Of a stretch of 37,164 nt of DNA, positions 3,564 through 34,622 are shown piece after piece. A program made the translations under genes and the position numbers. The DNA is taken from contig QBMH01000022.1 in NCBI GenBank assembly GCA_003249025.1, forward strand, positions 1 to 37,164, read 5' to 3'. Under the pieces are notes generated by a model. The model made no database searches. It saw nothing but the letters and a program-made list of their open reading frames with translations, and was not told the DNA's origin. The stretch is from Leptolyngbya sp. (GTDB lineage: Bacteria; Cyanobacteriota; Cyanobacteriia; Leptolyngbyales; Leptolyngbyaceae). Numbering within the stretch: the first letter of the stretch is position 1; every line of letters begins with the position of its first letter.

Positions 3564-5375
3564 TTAGCCCTTCTTGCCCAGTAGCCAGTAGGTGGTCATG
3601 TCGCCCTTGCCTTTAATAGTAACTAATCCCCTTTGCTCAAAGTTGTATCCATTCTTTAAACGGTTATAAACGGCTTCGGTGACTTGAATCCGTTCCGGTT
3701 CACCTTGAGATTCCATGCGGCTAGCAACGTTGACGGTATCGCCCCACAGATCATAGGTGAACCGCCGAATCCCAATCACTCCAGCCACAACGGGTCCTGT
3801 ATGAATGCCAATCCGCAGGCTCAGGGAACGACCATCTGGCACATTAATCTTAGTAATTTCATGCTGCATATCGATCGCAATATCCGCGATCGCCCTCACA
3901 TGATCGGCTCTGGGAAGGGGCAATCCCGCCACCGCCATATAGGCATCGCCAATGGTTTTAATCTTTTCCAAACGGTGATGGTCTGCCAGTTGATCAAACT
4001 TAGAAAAAACGCTGTTGAGTAACTCCACCAGTTCAGTGGGTGAAATGGTAGTCGAAAGTTCAGTAAAGCCCACCAAATCGGCGAACAATACGGTTGCTTC
4101 TGTAAAACTATCCGCGATAACTTTTTGCCCTCTTTTGAGGCGTTCGGCAATGGCTTGAGGCAGCACGTTGAGCAGCAGGCGCTCAGAGTTTAATCGCTGT
4201 CGGCGCAGTTCATCTTCAGTGGACTTGCGATCAGTAATGTCGCGCACACTGCCTTCATAGTGAAGTAATGCGCCATCATCGTCTCGAACGGCGTGCATAT
4301 TTTCAGAAATCCAAATGATGCTGCCATCTTTACGGTAGATTTCAGACTCAAACACGGTCACAAATTCAAACTGTCGCACGAAGGCAATTAATTCTTCCCG
4401 GCGGCGCGGCTGCACATATAACTGCGCGCCAATATCGGTAATGCTGGCGATCAGTTCTTCTGGCGAATCATAGCCATACATTTCCGCTAAGGCAGGATTG
4501 GCATTAAGATATTGTCCAGTCAAAGTAGTTTGAAAGATGCCCTCGGCAACATGTTCAAAAATCTTGCGATATTTTTCTTCGGTAGCCGCTAGCTCAGCGG
4601 TGCGCTGTTCGACGCGCTGTTCCAATTCTTGTGCCTGCTGACGGAGTTGAGCTTGAGACTGATGCAGCGCTTCTTCGGCTTGTTTGCGATCGCTAATGTC
4701 ATACAGCGTAGTCAGCAAGGTTTGTTGTCCCGCCAACATCATGGGATGCACTGAAGCAGAGACCCAAATCGTTCCTTCTGCGATCGTCCGAATTTCCATT
4801 TCGTAATTGCGAACAGTGCCCTGCTGCTCAAATAACGCCCAAAGCACTTCGGAATCATTTGGATTAGCAAAAAACTCTTTTAACTGATGTCCCGTTAACG
4901 CCTGTGGATCAATGCCAAACCGTTGACTAGAGATCGAGTTGGCATAAACGATTGCGCCATCTAACGTTTGGGTTAGGATCATCAAAATCGGAGTGGATTC
5001 CGAAATCGCCCGAAACAGTTCTTCGCTTTGGCGCATGGTTTCCACCGCTTGGGTGTAAAGCTGATACTCAACCGTATCGCCATGTTCAGCCGTCGCCTTC
5101 AGCATTAGTTCTAGATCGGCTTTATCTCTAGAAACCGTCTCGAAAATGTTTTGCAGGGTGGATTGCGCCAGTCTGCGCTCAGCGATTTCTGTTTGCAACT
5201 GCTGGTTTGTCTGATGAAGCTCCGCTTCTACAGCATCCCCGTGTTCTGTAATCGTTTGCATAGCAATTTCCAGGTCGCAGTTCGTCCGCTGAAGCCGCGC
5301 CACCTCAAGCCGGAGAGCTTCGATCTCTGCAACCGATACCTTTTGCTGTCTCTCGACTGGGCTTGCTTCTGCCAT
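3564..5375 (-). CDS. PAS-containing class III adenylate cyclase
   Basis: A 603-residue soluble cyclase predicted to make cAMP from ATP. Order: coiled coil with two EHGD motifs (residues 44-47 and 97-100), PAS (about 115-230), coiled coil (231-265), second PAS/PAC (266-384), then the cyclase domain (about 395-600). The catalytic set is complete: metal-binding D433 (FADLVGF) and D477 (KTIGDAYM), adenine-selecting K473 and D542 (TYDLWGD), and transition-state N549 and R553 (NVASR). The Lys/Asp pair indicates ATP rather than GTP as substrate. No membrane segment is seen. It begins six bases after the STAS gene and has no clear Shine-Dalgarno sequence, so translation is probably coupled. Its second PAS domain closely resembles that of the phosphatase upstream. 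Family assignment is firm; the PAS ligands are unknown. Confidence 0.93.
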   Translation of the reverse strand: MAEASPVERQQKVSVAEIEALRLEVARLQRTNCDLEIAMQTITEHGDAVEAELHQTNQQLQTEIAERRLAQSTLQNIFETVSRDKADLELMLKATAEHGDTVEYQLYTQAVETMRQSEELFRAISESTPILMILTQTLDGAIVYANSISSQRFGIDPQALTGHQLKEFFANPNDSEVLWALFEQQGTVRNYEMEIRTIAEGTIWVSASVHPMMLAGQQTLLTTLYDISDRKQAEEALHQSQAQLRQQAQELEQRVEQRTAELAATEEKYRKIFEHVAEGIFQTTLTGQYLNANPALAEMYGYDSPEELIASITDIGAQLYVQPRRREELIAFVRQFEFVTVFESEIYRKDGSIIWISENMHAVRDDDGALLHYEGSVRDITDRKSTEDELRRQRLNSERLLLNVLPQAIAERLKRGQKVIADSFTEATVLFADLVGFTELSTTISPTELVELLNSVFSKFDQLADHHRLEKIKTIGDAYMAVAGLPLPRADHVRAIADIAIDMQHEITKINVPDGRSLSLRIGIHTGPVVAGVIGIRRFTYDLWGDTVNVASRMESQGEPERIQVTEAVYNRLKNGYNFEQRGLVTIKGKGDMTTYWLLGKKG

Positions 5376-5381
5376 GGCATT

Positions 5382-5723
5382 CTATTCAAATTCAAGTTTG
5401 AGGCTGGGCATCAGTCGCTGCAAGTTTTTAAGTGATTTAGTTTGCCAAAGAGTTTTTTCTGACCCCTGAAAGACTAAATCCACAGTGCCTTTATCGCGAG
5501 CTTTTACTACAAACATCGATAACATGCTAATCCCGGAACTATTTAAAAATTCCAGTTCGCGCAGGTTAATTGTAAAGCTAGAAGCTGATTCAATTGCGTT
5601 TAGCAAAATATCCATGACGGGTTGATATGCCTCCATCCCATCTAGCCGTAGCAAACCCTGGAAAAAAACGGTAGCAGAGTCTGGCTCATACCGAATAGTG
5701 TAATCGTCTGTCTTGATGTGCAC
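5382..5723 (-). CDS. Slr1659-like STAS-type anti-sigma antagonist
   Basis: A 113-residue protein that I recognise as a homologue of the Synechocystis Slr1659 family, a STAS-like fold related to SpoIIAA. The core LRELEFLNSSGISMLSMF corresponds to the helix start where SpoIIAA is phosphorylated, with S62/S63 as candidate acceptor serines; the usual preceding Asp is Asn. By family logic it would be phosphorylated or sequestered by the GHKL protein encoded just upstream and restored by a PP2C phosphatase. I chose the GTG at 5723 because GGGAG sits eight bases before it; a longer TTG start would be at 5753. It lies 51 bases after the Slr1658-like gene and six bases before the cyclase. Confidence 0.85.
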   Translation of the reverse strand: MHIKTDDYTIRYEPDSATVFFQGLLRLDGMEAYQPVMDILLNAIESASSFTINLRELEFLNSSGISMLSMFVVKARDKGTVDLVFQGSEKTLWQTKSLKNLQRLMPSLKLEFE

Positions 5724-5774
5724 AGCTACAACTCCCCATCTTGTCCAAAACAACTTACTAATTTTGACAACTGT

Positions 5775-6365
5775 TTACACATTCAAATAAGCCATCACGT
5801 CAACTTTAACCACATTTGGCATTGATTCAAGCGTTTGAAATTGCCAGCCAAACTGAGCAGAGTAATCATTCATCATAGTTAAGACTCCCATGCTAGAGCC
5901 GCCGCCACCCATGGCTGTCTTTTCTAACTGAGTCATATAAAACTCATCTAAATCGGAAGCCAACAAAACTTGAACAAAGGCTTGATACTTCTCTGCGATC
6001 GCTTGATTGGCGAAGTTGATGACATGAAAAATAATTTGATGATCATACAAATGTAGTGAAATGCTGACAGGTAGACCCGTTGAATCATCATTGTACTTTA
6101 CGGCATTCTCTAGAAGTTCATTCGCGACATAGCTGACAGCAGCTTTTACCGTATCTCGCTGATTGATTTTGCTATCTGGCAACTCGTCTCCGGGGAAGAA
6201 GGCGGCAAAATAATCTCCCAAAAAATCGGCGGATAGCCCATAGTTGCCCCAACGCCGTTTACGAGCGGCAGCAGTAGGGGAAAAGTTAAGGGTGAGATAT
6301 TCCTGAGAGGAAGGAATCTGCTGAGTAAAGTCTCCAAAGGTTTGAATAACACTAGTTTGAGTCAT
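5775..6365 (-). CDS. Slr1658-like GHKL-fold regulator
   Basis: A 196-residue protein that I recognise as a homologue of the Synechocystis Slr1658 family, distantly related to anti-sigma-factor kinases such as SpoIIAB/RsbW. The N box is clear (ANELLENAVKYND, residues 81-93), as is a late glycine-rich stretch (GGGGSSMGVLTMMNDY, 153-168). The DxGxG box expected between them is replaced by IIFHVINFAN, so ATP binding or kinase activity is doubtful. The ATG at 6365 has AGG about six bases upstream and is preferred to the TTG at 6380. It precedes the STAS gene, the normal arrangement of a switch protein and its partner. Which sigma factor or other target it controls cannot be read from the sequence. 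Confidence 0.85.
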   Translation of the reverse strand: MTQTSVIQTFGDFTQQIPSSQEYLTLNFSPTAAARKRRWGNYGLSADFLGDYFAAFFPGDELPDSKINQRDTVKAAVSYVANELLENAVKYNDDSTGLPVSISLHLYDHQIIFHVINFANQAIAEKYQAFVQVLLASDLDEFYMTQLEKTAMGGGGSSMGVLTMMNDYSAQFGWQFQTLESMPNVVKVDVMAYLNV

Positions 6366-6481
6366 AACTACCTGGATCAAGTTTGGCGGAGTAAAAGTGT
6401 CTCAGAAGGGCAAAGTCCAGGGATTTTAGCAGAAAATTGCTGACCTATATAAAGTGCCCCAATTGCTAAGAGACGACGAAG

Positions 6482-7354
6482 TTATTGTCTTAATGTTGTT
6501 GTGGAACTGAAAATGATGCGATCGCGCCCTTGCTGTTTTGCCAGATAAAGGTATTGGTCGGCTTCGTCTAGAAGCTTGCTAAAGGATTGCTGCGGAGTTG
6601 GAATGCTGCTGGCAATGCCAATACTAAGGGTAAGATAATCGCTAACGGAGGATTTTTCATGAAGAATTTTCAGATTCGCAATCTCAGTTTGCACTCGTTG
6701 GGCGACTTCCATTGCCCCTTCGAGACTGGTTTGCGGCAAGATCGCTGCAAATTCTTCGCCGCCATAGCGGGCAATCAGGTCACTAGGGCGATGAACGCAG
6801 CCATTTAGCACTTGGGCAACTTGTTTTAAGCAATCGTCTCCGGCTAAGTGTCCATAGGTGTCGTTGTACTGCTTGAAGAGATCTATATCAAACAGGATGA
6901 GGCAGATGGGCGATCGCTCCCGTGTCATTTGCTTCCATTGCTGCTCTATATGTTCATCAAAACGGCGACGATTCGGAATCTGAGTTAGCCCGTCAATACT
7001 AGCAATTTTGTTCATCTCCGATAGTTTCAGCGCCCACTGAGTATCCATAATGTCGCCATGTTCCATGATGGTTTGCACCACAATTTCTAGATCGGCTTTT
7101 CGCTTAGAAATAGCTTCCATCAAAGTTTTCAAGGTCATTTCTGTACGCCGTCGCACTTCAACTTCAACCTGAAGCTGCTGATTTGCTGCTTGCAGTTGGG
7201 CTTCAACACAATCTCCATGCTCTGCTGTGGTAGAGAGAGCAATATAAAGATCCTCGCGTTCGCGCTTTAATCGCTCAACCTCTTCACGGAGATGTTTAAT
7301 TTGCTCCATAAGATGCAGAACTTCACTTTCTGAAGATTGACAGGATTCAGACAT
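6482..7354 (-). CDS. Diguanylate cyclase (GGDEF) with EHGD coiled coil
   Basis: A 290-residue soluble enzyme predicted to make c-di-GMP from two GTP. Residues 1-110 are coiled coil with EHGD motifs at 45-48 and 98-101; residues about 120-285 are the GGDEF domain. The active site is intact: FDIDLFKQYNDTYGH and GGEEF. An RxxD inhibitory site (RPSD) lies five residues before GGEEF, so product feedback inhibition is expected. There is no sensor domain apart from the coiled coil, which probably controls dimerisation. The N-terminal module matches that of the adenylate cyclase two genes downstream, including the 53-residue motif spacing. It is separated from the Slr1658-like gene by 116 bases and could have its own promoter or share a transcript. 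Confidence 0.93.
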   Translation of the reverse strand: MSESCQSSESEVLHLMEQIKHLREEVERLKREREDLYIALSTTAEHGDCVEAQLQAANQQLQVEVEVRRRTEMTLKTLMEAISKRKADLEIVVQTIMEHGDIMDTQWALKLSEMNKIASIDGLTQIPNRRRFDEHIEQQWKQMTRERSPICLILFDIDLFKQYNDTYGHLAGDDCLKQVAQVLNGCVHRPSDLIARYGGEEFAAILPQTSLEGAMEVAQRVQTEIANLKILHEKSSVSDYLTLSIGIASSIPTPQQSFSKLLDEADQYLYLAKQQGRDRIIFSSTTTLRQ

Positions 7355-7515
7355 TCAGCCGAACTCAGTTGAAAAATCTAGGCTCAGGGTAACTACTATT
7401 AACGGATATGAAAAAAGAAAATACCTGGATTGGACAGAAGAAAGTCCCTAAGTTTTCTAGAAACTCCTACTTAGGAAGTTGGTATTAAATCTTAGGAAAA
7501 TTCACCCTTATGTCG

Positions 7516-7533
7516 AATATATCGAAATATATT
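7516..7533 (-). other. AT-rich hairpin with TTCG loop after the phosphatase gene
   Basis: AATATAT and ATATATT flank a four-base loop, read as TTCG on the minus strand, 36 bases after the phosphatase stop codon. UUCG loops stabilise RNA hairpins. No T-run follows on the minus strand, so it is more likely an RNA-processing or 3'-protecting hairpin than a classic terminator. Confidence 0.35.
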
Positions 7534-7568
7534 GAACTGCACCTGAGAGATTTATATCTTACGGCAAA

Positions 7569-9899
7569 TTACTTTTGCTTCATCACAAGTAAAGTGATAT
7601 CGTCGAATACTTTCTGTTTGCCGATGTGCTGCATCAAATCGGCGATCACAGCTTGCCGAATTTCTTGAACTGAGCGATCGCGGTGTTGCTTAAGAACCTC
7701 ATACATTTTTTCTAAGCCATATTGACTGTTTTGAGTATTCATGGCTTCAGAGATGCCATCGGTATAAAGCACTGCGATATCGCCGGAGTGGAGATGAACC
7801 TTGACTTCGGCAATAAAAGGGCTAATGTCTGCCTCTAAAGCCAAGGGGAAACCCAAATCGAGAGTATCAATATGTTCTAGCCGCCCGTCTTGACGAACCA
7901 CAATTAGCTCTTCATGTTGCCCGGTCAGGTATAAATCCCCGGCTTTGTATTCCAACAGGGCAAGGGACATATTTTTACACGATCGCATCCGCTGCGTGTT
8001 GTCATAGAGCGCTCGATTAACAGAATTGAGAAACTTTGCCGAATTCATTTCACCATTCACCAACAAAGTTCGCACCGCCATCTGCGCCATGATCATCACC
8101 ATGCCACTTTCTAGCCCATGCCCGGTGACATCGCCAATGCTGATGCTAACTTTGCCATCATGTTGAATCACATCGTAATAATCGCCGCCCACTTCTGCGG
8201 CAGGCTCCATGAATCCAGCAATATCCAAACCAACGACTGCGTTCAATTCTGCATCGGCGGGCATCAGCATTTTTTGCAGGCGACGAGTCACATCCAGTTC
8301 AGCGCCCATCCGCAAGTTTTCATCCTGAAGCTGTTGGGTCAACTGCATCACTTCTATCTCTGCCTGTTTGCGGCGAGTAATGTCTTCTACGGTGCCTTCG
8401 TAGCCTGTAATATTTTTTTGATCATCATAAATCGCCCGTGCCGATTCGGAAATCCAAATGATGCTGCCGTCTTTACGATAAATCTGCGATTCAAATCCCG
8501 ATACTTTGCCCTGCTGTTTAATCAGTTGGGCAAATTCGGCGCGGCGATCGCAATCAACATAAAGCTGTTCACTAATATTAGTCATCCTATCGATTAACTC
8601 CTCGACGGTGTTGTATCCATAGATTTTTGCCAACATTGGATTTGCAATTAAATAGGTGCCATCGGATGTGGTTTGAAAAATACCCTCGACTGAGTTTTCA
8701 AAGATGCCGCGATATTTTGCTTCGGCTTCTCGCAATACATCCGCCACCATATTGAACGATCGCACGACATCTGCTAGTTCATCTTGACTGGATAACGTAA
8801 CTGCATCTTTGAAATTTCCGTCTACCATTCGTTGAGATGCAGTTTTGAGGCTAGAAACAACCTGCATCATGCCATGATAAAAGCAGATAAATAAGTAAGC
8901 TGCGATCGCTAACACAATCAGAATAAATACCGTAGTCCATCGCTGCTTATCAACAAAGCCATCAATTCGTTTTTGTAAAAGAAAATCTAGTTCTTGAACT
9001 GTTTCATCCCATAAACTAAAGCTTTGCTGCAAGCTTTTCGCCGAAAGATCAGAGTAAGTTATGGCTTGCAGCGATCGCAGATCAAAGCTTAGAACATTCA
9101 TTTGCTTAGTCAGTTTCTCAACCGTCTGGTTAAGCTTTTGCAAGCGAGTCAACAATATAGGACGTAGGTTTCCTGATGGATTATTGTTAAGAGCGATCGT
9201 CATTTTTCCGCTCAAATGGGTATTGAGTTGTTTTAGTTTGCCTTTTAACGTAATCAGTTGTGCTTGAGCTAAAGGACTAATAACTTTTTTAGTAGATTCT
9301 CTTTCGCTAATCGTTTGAATTTCTGCTAAATTTCTCTGAATTTCTGGTAGATTTAAGAGTGCCGCATCCATTAAATAGTAAGTGTCTAAATCAGGATCAA
9401 GAATCAGGTTAGATTGATCGCCCACCTGAAGCCATAAATCTTCAAGTTGGTATAGCAATTGTTGATAATTTGTGCTGGCAGATTGTGAATTTAAATTGAC
9501 CTGATTATCAAGTTGTTCGCTAATATTTTGAATGCTTTTAAGTAGGCTAGTTGTCCCTAAATCATTTCCAAATTTTTGATCGAGTTGCTTCAGTTTATTA
9601 ATATCCAAAGCTATTTTTGATTTAAATTCGGTGATTTGATTGGATATTTCGGTTGCATCTTTAGTGCGATCGTTGTCAATGTTGGCTTTCAATGTATTTT
9701 CTAGCAAACGCCGTAACGGACGAAGATATTGAGTTCCATGCAATTCCTTTTGAGTGAAATTAACTTTGCTTTGAAACTCAGAAAATAATAAATAGGTTAA
9801 TAAAACAATGGGCAATGCGAAAAAGCTACTGATCAGCGCAAATTTCTGAGGGTACTTCAAATGATTCATCAGATTGCGACCAGGCTTAACAAGTTTCAT
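7569..9899 (-). CDS. Membrane PP2C (SpoIIE-type) phosphatase with HAMP and PAS
   Basis: A 776-residue transmembrane sensor-phosphatase. Order: TM1 (about 21-42), an extracytoplasmic helical sensor region (about 43-320) containing the LDPDLDTYYLMD motif seen in some chemoreceptor-like sensors, TM2 (about 322-345), HAMP (about 346-392), PAS/PAC (about 394-512), short coiled coil, and a SpoIIE domain (about 540-776). Metal-binding acidic residues are present: EVGGDYYDV, IGDVTGHG, LYTDGISEA and FDDITLLVM. The domain should dephosphorylate a phosphoserine STAS protein, and the Slr1659-like protein in the same block is the obvious candidate. I chose the ATG at 9899 over a GTG at 9914 because GGTGA lies upstream at suitable spacing. 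The gene is first in the minus-strand block, so an external signal could set the switch. Confidence 0.92.
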   Translation of the reverse strand: MKLVKPGRNLMNHLKYPQKFALISSFFALPIVLLTYLLFSEFQSKVNFTQKELHGTQYLRPLRRLLENTLKANIDNDRTKDATEISNQITEFKSKIALDINKLKQLDQKFGNDLGTTSLLKSIQNISEQLDNQVNLNSQSASTNYQQLLYQLEDLWLQVGDQSNLILDPDLDTYYLMDAALLNLPEIQRNLAEIQTISERESTKKVISPLAQAQLITLKGKLKQLNTHLSGKMTIALNNNPSGNLRPILLTRLQKLNQTVEKLTKQMNVLSFDLRSLQAITYSDLSAKSLQQSFSLWDETVQELDFLLQKRIDGFVDKQRWTTVFILIVLAIAAYLFICFYHGMMQVVSSLKTASQRMVDGNFKDAVTLSSQDELADVVRSFNMVADVLREAEAKYRGIFENSVEGIFQTTSDGTYLIANPMLAKIYGYNTVEELIDRMTNISEQLYVDCDRRAEFAQLIKQQGKVSGFESQIYRKDGSIIWISESARAIYDDQKNITGYEGTVEDITRRKQAEIEVMQLTQQLQDENLRMGAELDVTRRLQKMLMPADAELNAVVGLDIAGFMEPAAEVGGDYYDVIQHDGKVSISIGDVTGHGLESGMVMIMAQMAVRTLLVNGEMNSAKFLNSVNRALYDNTQRMRSCKNMSLALLEYKAGDLYLTGQHEELIVVRQDGRLEHIDTLDLGFPLALEADISPFIAEVKVHLHSGDIAVLYTDGISEAMNTQNSQYGLEKMYEVLKQHRDRSVQEIRQAVIADLMQHIGKQKVFDDITLLVMKQK

Positions 9900-10350
9900 A
9901 AAATAAATCACCACTACTTAGAAAAAATGCCCTGGTGCGTTAAGAAATACGTCACAAATCATTCTTTGATAGCCGTCAGTCTACGGTTTCGATAGTTTCC
10001 TTCAATTAATGATCAATGTGACCTATCTATGTTTTAAGATACGCCTGAAATAACAGCAATCTGGATAATACGGGAATATCTAGTGTCAAGCGAAATAATG
10101 GAAATATTGCAAATAGCATGGCTTGTAGAGTGCTAAGGACAAGCTCACAATGCAGTTGGTATGAGGTTTCTTGCAGAACTTGAGGCAGATGATTGAGACA
10201 ACCCTATGGCGATCGCTCACTTGCATAGTGCTGCAATTTAACCCGTCATTCTGCCGCAAAACGACCCATCTATGGCAATCTGAGAAGTAGAGACTTGTTT
10301 AACATTGATCCTAATCCCTGCTCTAGCCGTAGAGAGCGAATAACAGCCTT
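9900..10350. other. Divergent intergenic region, phosphatase / ispG
   Basis: This 451-base spacer must hold the promoters for the minus-strand phosphatase and for ispG on the plus strand. I see no strong -10/-35 pair, no convincing CRP-type palindrome (a lone TGTGA half-site near 10018 lacks its partner) and no open reading frame worth calling. One HIP1 octamer is present near 10210. Confidence 0.5.
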
Positions 10351-33509: not shown

Positions 33510-33574
33510 TTTCAGGTTTCGGGCTTCAGGTTTCGGGTTTTCGCTGCCCCCTAATCCCTACCCCCTAATCAGCC
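33510..33574. repeat. Two heptamer arrays between convergent genes
   Basis: First array 33510-33537: TTTCAGG, TTTCGGG, CTTCAGG, TTTCGGG. Second array 33547-33574: CCCCCTA, ATCCCTA, CCCCCTA, ATCAGCC. The second runs into the 3' end of the ferredoxin-cyclase gene and encodes its last residues (LIRG) and stop codon. Confidence 0.78.
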
Positions 33575-34622
33575 GCTTCATCCAATATCCGAAAGCTCTG
33601 ATAAATCGTTTAATTGGGCTAAACCAGTGACATTTTGCTTTGGTCGTAGTCACCATGCCAAACTCTTCACCGCTCGTGGAAGGAGTAATATCGTTGACTT
33701 CGTAAAGGCTATATTCTCCACTCTTACCCGGAATTTTTACTTGGAACGATTGCCCTACTAGAACATGGTCTTTCGCTTCGGCGTAAGCTTCTTTGGAAAT
33801 CAGAAAGGTTGTTCCTAAAGGTTTGTTAGCCGCTTCGATCCGGCTTGCCAAATTTACAGCATCCCCGATCGCGGTCATTTTCGGGTTTTTGGGATCGCCA
33901 ATCGTGCCAATTACCGTCCAGCCATAATGAACCCCAATGCCAATTCGCAACCGCTGTTGATATAAGCCTTCTAAGGACGGGTTTAACTCTTCCAACGCTG
34001 CCAGCATTCCCATCCCTGCTCGAATGGCTCGTTCCGCAGCGCGATCGGGGTTATCCACGCCAAATAGCGCCATAAAACCATCGCCCATGTAGACGTTGAT
34101 CGTGCCACCATACCGATTAATTACCTCTGCCATCCGCTGAAAGTAACGGTTCAAAACATAAATCACATCGTAGGGCAGCAGCGCTTCTGAAAAGGCAGTA
34201 AATCCTCGAATATCTGCAAACAAAATAGCGACGTGCTTTTCTTGCCCCAATAAGGAAGGAGCCGCTTTCTTGGATACCTGATCGAAAAACATTGCCATGT
34301 CGTCTGCATCCAAAGACAGCCGCCGCAGAGTGATTTTGCCTTCACGAGCAATCATCGTTTGGCACGCCAAACGCACACAGGATTCAAAACCCAACTGATC
34401 CGCTAAAACCTGTTCTTCTGGGGTACGCGGCGCACAAAATTCTTGCCCATCTAAAATCAATACGCGACAAGTAGAGCAACGAGCATTGCCGCCACAGACA
34501 TGAGTATGGGGAATTCCCGCTTCCAAAGCCGCTGTCAGCAGTGTGTTAGCGTCTTCTGTTTCGATTAGCTGTTGGTCGGGTAAATAAAAAATCTGTGTCA
34601 TTGTGGGGGCTGGCATCACCAT
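33558..34622 (-). CDS. [2Fe-2S] ferredoxin-class III nucleotidyl cyclase fusion
   Basis: A 354-residue soluble protein. Residues 8-100 are a ferredoxin domain with C43-x5-C49-x2-C52 and C87, the adrenodoxin-type [2Fe-2S] spacing. Residues 125-310 are a cyclase domain with metal-binding D137 (FADIRGF) and D181 (YMGDGF), T250 at the second base-contact position, and catalytic N257 and R261 (NLASR). The usual base-selecting Lys is V177, so nucleotide choice is uncertain. The C-terminus (about 333-354) is a basic amphipathic stretch that may bind membranes; its last four residues lie in a heptamer array. A likely redox-sensing cyclase. The start could instead be the ATG at 34601. Confidence 0.9.
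   Translation of the reverse strand: MVMPAPTMTQIFYLPDQQLIETEDANTLLTAALEAGIPHTHVCGGNARCSTCRVLILDGQEFCAPRTPEEQVLADQLGFESCVRLACQTMIAREGKITLRRLSLDADDMAMFFDQVSKKAAPSLLGQEKHVAILFADIRGFTAFSEALLPYDVIYVLNRYFQRMAEVINRYGGTINVYMGDGFMALFGVDNPDRAAERAIRAGMGMLAALEELNPSLEGLYQQRLRIGIGVHYGWTVIGTIGDPKNPKMTAIGDAVNLASRIEAANKPLGTTFLISKEAYAEAKDHVLVGQSFQVKIPGKSGEYSLYEVNDITPSTSGEEFGMVTTTKAKCHWFSPIKRFIRAFGYWMKRLIRG

Follow-up and report, generated by a model that had tools for sequence, protein, structure and literature searches.

An EHGD stalk motif accompanies the Slr1658/Slr1659 pair and is a probable docking tag linking a SiaABC-like partner switch to adenylate and diguanylate cyclases

Results

A five-gene block encodes a candidate partner switch and two cyclases

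The DNA analyzed here, referred to as the window, is a stretch of 37,164 nucleotides from Leptolyngbya sp. (contig QBMH01000022.1) within a cyanobacterial genome of 5.46 Mb. Its minus strand carries a block of five genes encoding, in this order, a PP2C phosphatase, a GGDEF enzyme, Slr1658, Slr1659 and an adenylate cyclase. A first-pass annotation, made from the sequence, had listed these genes in the same order on one strand, and all five were found; the gaps of 51 and 6 bases that it gave between the last three are correct for the starts chosen there. The 6 bases between the STAS (Slr1659) gene and the adenylate cyclase gene are the shortest gap in the block, and 214 bases separate the PP2C and GGDEF genes. 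The phosphatase and both cyclases have intact catalytic residues. In promoter and terminator scans, matches were no more frequent than in shuffled sequence.

7569..9899 (-): membrane PP2C (SpoIIE-type) phosphatase, from Pfam and motif checks
~8940-9767 (-): external sensor of the phosphatase
8727-8852 (-): HAMP region of the phosphatase
8376-8717 (-): PAS domain of the phosphatase
7578-8159 (-): PP2C domain of the phosphatase
6482..7354 (-): diguanylate cyclase with N-terminal stalk; GGDEF domain at 6518-7003 with active GGEEF and RxxD
5775..6365 (-): Slr1658-family GHKL protein, SiaB-like switch kinase candidate (NF052618, DUF6272 tally, AlphaFold model)
5382..5723 (-): Slr1659-family STAS protein, SiaC-like switch substrate candidate (NF047705, Pfam SiaC tally, model)
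5532..5543 (-): invariant N-S-S-G of Slr1659, candidate phosphorylation site (62/62 sequences; SpoIIAA and SiaC alignment)
3564..5375 (-): stalk-PAS-PAS-class III adenylate cyclase; catalytic domain at 3579-4115

The phosphatase starts with an ATG at 9899, and an in-frame GTG is also present at 9914. Two membrane helices are predicted (residues 26-44 and 327-345 of the GTG-started form), the PAS domain is clear, and the SpoIIE/PP2C domain (E=6e-36) keeps all metal-binding Asp motifs (GGDYY, GDVTGHG, YTDG and DDITL). The HAMP match, at 24.4 bits, is slightly below the Pfam cut-off of 25, and with this qualification the earlier description of a membrane PP2C with HAMP and PAS holds.

GGEEF forms the active site of the GGDEF enzyme, which also has DIDLFK; its inhibitory site, RPSD, lies 5 residues upstream. 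The enzyme combines the GG(D/E)EF and RxxD motifs of an active diguanylate cyclase, as had been annotated. In the adenylate cyclase, the class III domain was detected with E=1e-66; both metal Asp residues, KTIGD and YDLWGDTVNVASR are present, so that the metal Asp pair, the adenine-selecting Lys/Asp and the Asn/Arg transition-state residues make up the full catalytic set reported for it.

Structure models of Slr1658 and Slr1659 resemble SiaB and SiaC

In the SiaABCD system of Pseudomonas aeruginosa, unphosphorylated SiaC binds two motifs per stalk of the SiaD dimer and thereby converts an inactive pentamer into an active dimer, as seen in a crystal structure, and phosphorylation of SiaC prevents this binding (PMC8457831); the kinase and the phosphatase of the SiaC switch have been described (PMC7647112).

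The window pair was identified as Slr1658-like GHKL and Slr1659-like STAS proteins, and both lie above curated NCBIfam cut-offs: 249 bits against NF052618 for Slr1658 (cut-off 200) and 147 bits against NF047705 for Slr1659 (cut-off 100), with a further match to the Slr1658/Slr1659 family NF047703 at 212 bits (cut-off 100). The closest named relatives of the window Slr1658 are from an uncultured cyanobacterium (92% identity) and from Leptolyngbyaceae including Pantanalinema (72%). The Pfam family DUF6272, to which SiaB belongs, was found in 38 of 39 Slr1658 family members (best 1e-12), the window protein scoring 19.7 bits, under the cut-off of 26.6; Pfam SiaC (PF09345) was found in 28 of 38 Slr1659 members (best 1e-5) and is not listed for the window protein.

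Predicted structure models were compared with the PDB by Foldseek and by VIA-align Z. For the Slr1659 model (pLDDT 95) the first seven Foldseek matches are all SiaC, and by Z SiaC (12.5 over 112 residues) ties with RsfB (12.1 over 100). The Slr1658 AlphaFold model (pLDDT 88) has SiaB (6kko_A) as its best Foldseek match; by Z SiaB ties with UsfX but covers 155 residues versus 129. The models thus show SiaB-like and SiaC-like predicted folds. PDB sequence searches with the single Slr1658 and Slr1659 proteins and with an Slr1658 profile gave no match, and the link to SiaB and SiaC comes solely from the structure models and the Pfam family tallies.

All 62 Slr1659 sequences contain FLNSSG or close variants, NSSG itself being present in 62/62. 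This NSSG aligns with the DSSG of SpoIIAA and, by position, with N67-T68-S69 of SiaC (PMC8457831). The candidate phosphoacceptor would be Ser73 if SpoIIAA is the guide and Ser72 if Thr68 of SiaC is; this numbering counts from a TTG at 5753, the annotation having evidently taken the GTG at 5723 as the start. In Slr1658 the N-box NELLEN is invariant, and so is an Asn where the DxGxG box of GHKL proteins usually has Asp; this Asn is present in the window protein (5775-6365) and in 54 Slr1658 sequences.

A repeated EHGD motif lies on a stalk common to both cyclases

At their N-termini the two cyclases are related by homology: the first ~110 residues of one align lengthwise with those of the other, a relationship that the first-pass annotation had not noticed. 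The shared stalk is of the coiled-coil type, and each cyclase holds two copies of DLEIxLxTTxEH(G/S)DxVE spaced exactly 53 residues apart. A 46-residue profile of the motif (A1) was derived from genes neighbouring slr1659.

7181..7315 (-): candidate docking motif copy 1, diguanylate cyclase stalk (DLYIALSTTAEHGDCVE), profile A1 E=4e-21
7031..7150 (-): candidate docking motif copy 2, diguanylate cyclase stalk (DLEIVVQTIMEHGDIMD), 53 residues past copy 1
5205..5333 (-): candidate docking motif copy 1, adenylate cyclase stalk (DLEIAMQTITEHGDAVE), profile A1 E=2e-19
5049..5180 (-): candidate docking motif copy 2, adenylate cyclase stalk (DLELMLKATAEHGDTVE), 53 residues past copy 1

Of 74 motif units from 45 proteins, all have the His, 97% the leading Asp-Leu and 85% the Asp following G/S. 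Across all loci, 83 of 84 copy spacings equal 4 modulo 7 (25, 46, 53, 60 and 67), which fits an unbroken coiled coil lengthened by whole heptads. The SiaC sites on SiaD, Ser50/Gln54 and Ser82/Gln86, lie 32 apart (PMC8457831), also 4 modulo 7, but as a single number this may be coincidence. The motif profile matched generic coiled coils in the PDB and did not match SiaD, so that no homology between the stalk and SiaD sequences is claimed. Residues of Slr1659 covarying with the motif type (G versus S after the His) scored high at positions 47, 80 and 102; both motif types follow lineage, and the signal was set aside. A plasmid search returned neither a stalk nor an EHGD match, and a 'stalk-PP2C' at one locus (L155) was discarded as a plain coil lacking the EH motif.

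The motif co-occurs with Slr1659 in two phyla

In a survey of 292 cyanobacterial genomes, Slr1659 was scored as present when above its family cut-off. It was present in 47 genomes, 37 of which contain strong motif matches (lowest score 34 bits), compared with none of the 245 genomes lacking Slr1659, where the best motif score was 25.6 bits. Counted by genus, the motif occurs in 25 of 32 genera with Slr1659 and in 0 of 84 without. The corresponding P values (5e-38 and 2e-19) ignore the kinship of the genomes and overstate the number of independent events, since the genomes are related. Of the 90 strong matches, 76 lie within 6 kb of slr1659, with 0.3% expected; the remaining 14, stalk-GGDEF genes among them, are farther off, yet all are in Slr1659 genomes.

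Two assemblies of gammaproteobacterial sulphur bacteria surfaced in the Slr1658 search, and both hold the motif. A replication sample of 185 gammaproteobacterial genomes was searched with the profile built from cyanobacteria. The motif was found in four genomes (G293, G315, G366 and G475), and Slr1659 above its cut-off in these four and in G415. In G293 and G475, four motif genes encoding histidine kinases directly follow slr1659. SiaC proper occurs in five genomes of the sample, three of which lack both Slr1659 and the motif; the motif therefore goes with Slr1659 and not with SiaC, and its genome-wide link to Slr1659 holds in two phyla.

These data bear on the possibility that the stalk is a generic dimerisation coil whose association with Slr1659 is an accident of gene order. 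Coiled coils are common, and in its first half the motif is a usual heptad sequence, matching only generic PDB coils. The second half, T-T-x-E-H-[GS]-D, is by contrast anything but generic, with its His invariant in all 74 units, and nothing above 26 bits was found in the 245 Slr1659-free cyanobacterial genomes; together with the gammaproteobacterial replication, this makes an accidental association very improbable.

Another explanation is a classical sigma-factor switch, in which Slr1658 would sequester a sigma factor, Slr1659 would free it and the cyclases would be mere operon neighbours. The fold class is indeed common to SpoIIAB/SpoIIAA, RsbW/RsbV and UsfX/RsfB, and PMC7555055, citing Zer et al. 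2018, reports that loss of slr1658 alters transcription in Synechocystis. Yet ten unlinked or loosely linked stalk genes are still confined to Slr1659 genomes, the motif is swapped among output enzymes in a way not predicted by mere operon sharing, and diguanylate cyclases are the targets of the nearest relatives known from experiment, namely SiaC, HsbA and BgrV (PMC8457831, PMC7647112). We regard a sigma-factor output as improbable.

Stalk-bearing genes flank slr1658 and slr1659 across cyanobacteria

Gene neighbourhoods were examined within 6 kb of slr1659 in two sets of loci: 54 loci from whole genomes with at least 4 kb on either side (the phylum sample) and 51 named loci. The first-pass annotation had set the absence of a conserved neighbourhood as a refutation; stalk-bearing genes were found to flank slr1658/slr1659 at 31 of the 54 phylum-sample loci (10 with GGDEF, 7 with adenylate cyclase, 5 with both and 9 with other outputs) and at 41 of the 51 named loci. 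All 90 nearby stalk genes share the strand of slr1659. The other outputs include PAS-GAF-histidine kinases, hybrid kinases, PAS-only proteins and a GGDEF-EAL-stalk-GGDEF protein, and carriers of the motif overall comprise adenylate and diguanylate cyclases, along with histidine kinases and small PAS proteins. Immediately upstream of slr1658 in Synechocystis salina is a stalk-GGDEF gene (L167).

The full order PP2C, stalk-GGDEF, Slr1658, Slr1659, stalk-cyclase also occurs in a Leptolyngbyaceae genome (L142), Scytolyngbya (L145) and Pantanalinema (L206), where Slr1658 and Slr1659 are 62-75% identical to those of the window and the PP2C aligns mostly at its catalytic end only. Because order and strand recur in relatives, the arrangement of the block is not due to chance. 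A PP2C gene is found within 6 kb at 31/54 phylum-sample and 37/51 named loci, its sensor being a receiver, a Cache-HAMP, a protein kinase-AAA-GAF or an ammonium transporter-PAS fused to PP2C. Given these differing sensors and the 214-base separation in the window, the PP2C is a looser member of the block, and the input phosphatases are interchangeable.

The earlier proposal, in which the phosphatase sets the state of the STAS protein and this protein in turn acts on one cyclase or on both, gains support from the neighbourhoods, the shared motif and the resemblance to SiaB/SiaC. Slr1659 might instead govern a single cyclase, for example the adenylate cyclase, the other stalk being a duplication relic or serving another partner. 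Adenylate cyclase alone or GGDEF alone is found at 17 phylum-sample and 28 named loci, and the STAS-adenylate cyclase gap is the shortest in the window. Against a single target, both window stalks retain both motif copies, blocks with both enzymes recur (5/54 and 9/51 loci, core identity 57-72%), and an Aphanothece protein joins GGDEF and cyclase domains on one stalk, though its cyclase looks degenerate (GNA for GDA). A single-target switch is therefore unlikely, and the shared motif together with the SiaB/SiaC resemblance makes control of both cyclases the better reading.

Relation to known partner switches

The block resembles SiaABCD (PMC8457831, PMC7647112, PMC7278518) in combining, in genes that lie together on one strand, a HAMP-PP2C membrane phosphatase, a GHKL protein from a family most of whose members match DUF6272, a candidate substrate with a predicted SiaC/STAS fold and a diguanylate cyclase whose coiled-coil stalk carries two repeated candidate sites. 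It differs in that Slr1659 is STAS-like with NSSG, whereas SiaC has an NTS site; in a stalk motif whose sequence is not that of SiaD and of which each window cyclase has two repeats; in the PAS domain of the phosphatase; and in sharing the stalk with an adenylate cyclase and, in relatives, with histidine kinases too. The window proteins do not reach the NCBIfam cut-offs for SiaA (58.5 bits, cut-off 700) and SiaD (NF038266, 155 bits confined to the GGDEF domain, cut-off 290).

A kinase/phosphatase-controlled STAS protein also modulates a diguanylate cyclase in BgrSTUWV-BgrR of Sinorhizobium meliloti and HsbR-HsbA-HsbD of P. aeruginosa (PMC8457831, PMC7647112); these systems have no adenylate cyclase target, and the rhizobial loci examined have no EHGD stalk. 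SpoIIAB/SpoIIAA, RsbW/RsbV and UsfX/RsfB share the kinase and antagonist folds, the N-box and the SSG site, here a putative phosphorylation site, but their output is a sigma factor; the genes conserved beside slr1658 and slr1659 encode cyclases and kinases that have a stalk in common.

In Synechocystis PCC 6803, a slr1658 mutant shows poor recovery from iron limitation and constitutive over-expression of pgr5 (Zer et al. 2018, as cited in PMC7555055 and PMC7968678). Slr1658 is described there as a putative two-component gene, and the authors of PMC7555055 say that its mechanism has yet to be found. It belongs to the same kinase family as the window protein, and these papers propose no link to cyclases bound by Slr1659. 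A literature search whose coverage excluded most subscription journals found no paper tying Slr1659, SiaC or STAS to cyanobacterial cyclases, and, within the same coverage, no mention of the EHGD motif or of adenylate cyclase being controlled by a partner switch; because of that coverage, the result is weak evidence of novelty. The switch type itself is known, and the new element would be its proposed extension, in SiaABC-like form, to cAMP and other outputs through a recognisable docking tag.

A proposed mechanism

We think it likely that the stalk motif EHGD/EHSD, present in one to three copies, serves as a portable tag for docking of the Slr1659 phosphoswitch with its interchangeable sensor phosphatases. 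Such a tag would put adenylate and diguanylate cyclases, histidine kinases, PAS adaptors and, in some gammaproteobacteria, a phosphatase under one switch, and in the window would let one external signal set both cAMP and c-di-GMP. For the block itself, a SiaABC-type partner switch in which one signal activates both cyclases through the shared tag is, by a slightly smaller measure, also the probable arrangement. The course of events that we infer, including the stoichiometry of binding, follows the SiaC precedent. Slr1658 would bind Slr1659 and phosphorylate a serine of its invariant NSSG; an external signal sensed by the membrane PP2C would lead to dephosphorylation of Slr1659, and the unphosphorylated protein would be released from Slr1658. 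The freed Slr1659 could then bind the repeated EHGD motifs on the stalks of the diguanylate cyclase and the adenylate cyclase, which would keep each stalk in an extended, parallel dimeric form and thereby activate both enzymes, whereby c-di-GMP and cAMP would be coupled to a single signal.

Several points weigh against this proposal. The invariant Asn in place of the DxGxG Asp means that kinase activity of Slr1658 is not to be taken for granted, and is the main worry in this respect. In the model comparison, VIA-align Z ties SiaC and SiaB with RsfB and UsfX, and the stalk motif is, as judged by sequence, unlike the published SiaD contact residues. The co-occurrence counts come from related genomes and are not independent events, and a profile built from slr1659 neighbours biases the proximity figure; its origin does not bias the absence of the motif elsewhere or the gammaproteobacterial outcome. 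Finally, ten Slr1659 genomes lack the motif, so that Slr1659 must have other targets.

The same Asn, together with the fact that a sequence cannot reveal the sign of regulation, would suit a switch of opposite sign, in which the phosphorylated form is active or the unphosphorylated form inhibitory, or one in which Slr1658 is a non-catalytic binder and switching occurs by competition alone. These variants appear doubtful in view of the SiaB/SiaC precedent (PMC8457831, PMC7647112), the invariance of the N-box NELLEN and of the NSSG serines, and the frequency with which a PP2C gene lies near slr1659.

If the preferred arrangement applies, cAMP and c-di-GMP, which are usually studied separately, may be set by one phosphoswitch via the same tag; candidate targets could be listed from any genome by a short motif that predicts partner-switch targets across phyla; and the slr1658 mutant phenotype would have a candidate, testable mechanism in uncontrolled Slr1659 acting on stalk-bearing enzymes.

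Variants on the output and input sides

Some motif carriers depart from the common architectures. Short proteins with a stalk and either PAS or no known domain occur at L083:9352-9837, L092:9360-9851, L084, L198, L204 and L062; they end in a common tail like VAEIxQTDYFxxL and are possibly adaptors. At L128:913-3132 the motif lies mid-protein, between GGDEF-EAL and a second GGDEF domain. The Aphanothece protein (L212:9117-10808) has a single stalk, and its cyclase may be inactive, judging from the missing second metal Asp. In G315 and G366 the motif (IEHGEAVEDQL) is on a divergent PP2C (L254:6898-7830 and L255:5432-6373).

On the input side, a phosphatase adjoining slr1658 includes a complete ammonium transporter in the same protein (Amt-PAS-PP2C, L078:10155-12728), which suggests an ammonium-sensing input; L080 and L081 are likened to it by equal length and position only. 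A very large input protein of ~1,800 residues combines a Ser/Thr protein kinase with AAA, GAF and PP2C (L038:11441-16945), and PP2C genes of similar size are present at L042, L075, L188, L198 and L202, the domains having been read in L038 only. On three rhizobial plasmids (L134, L135 and L136), PP2C-Slr1658-Slr1659 relatives lie beside a GGDEF-EAL gene and also adjoin a methyltransferase with an N-terminal STAS-like domain. Elsewhere in the window, a second class III cyclase at 33558-34622 (-) lacks the stalk and joins a 2Fe-2S ferredoxin domain to an adenylate/guanylate cyclase domain.

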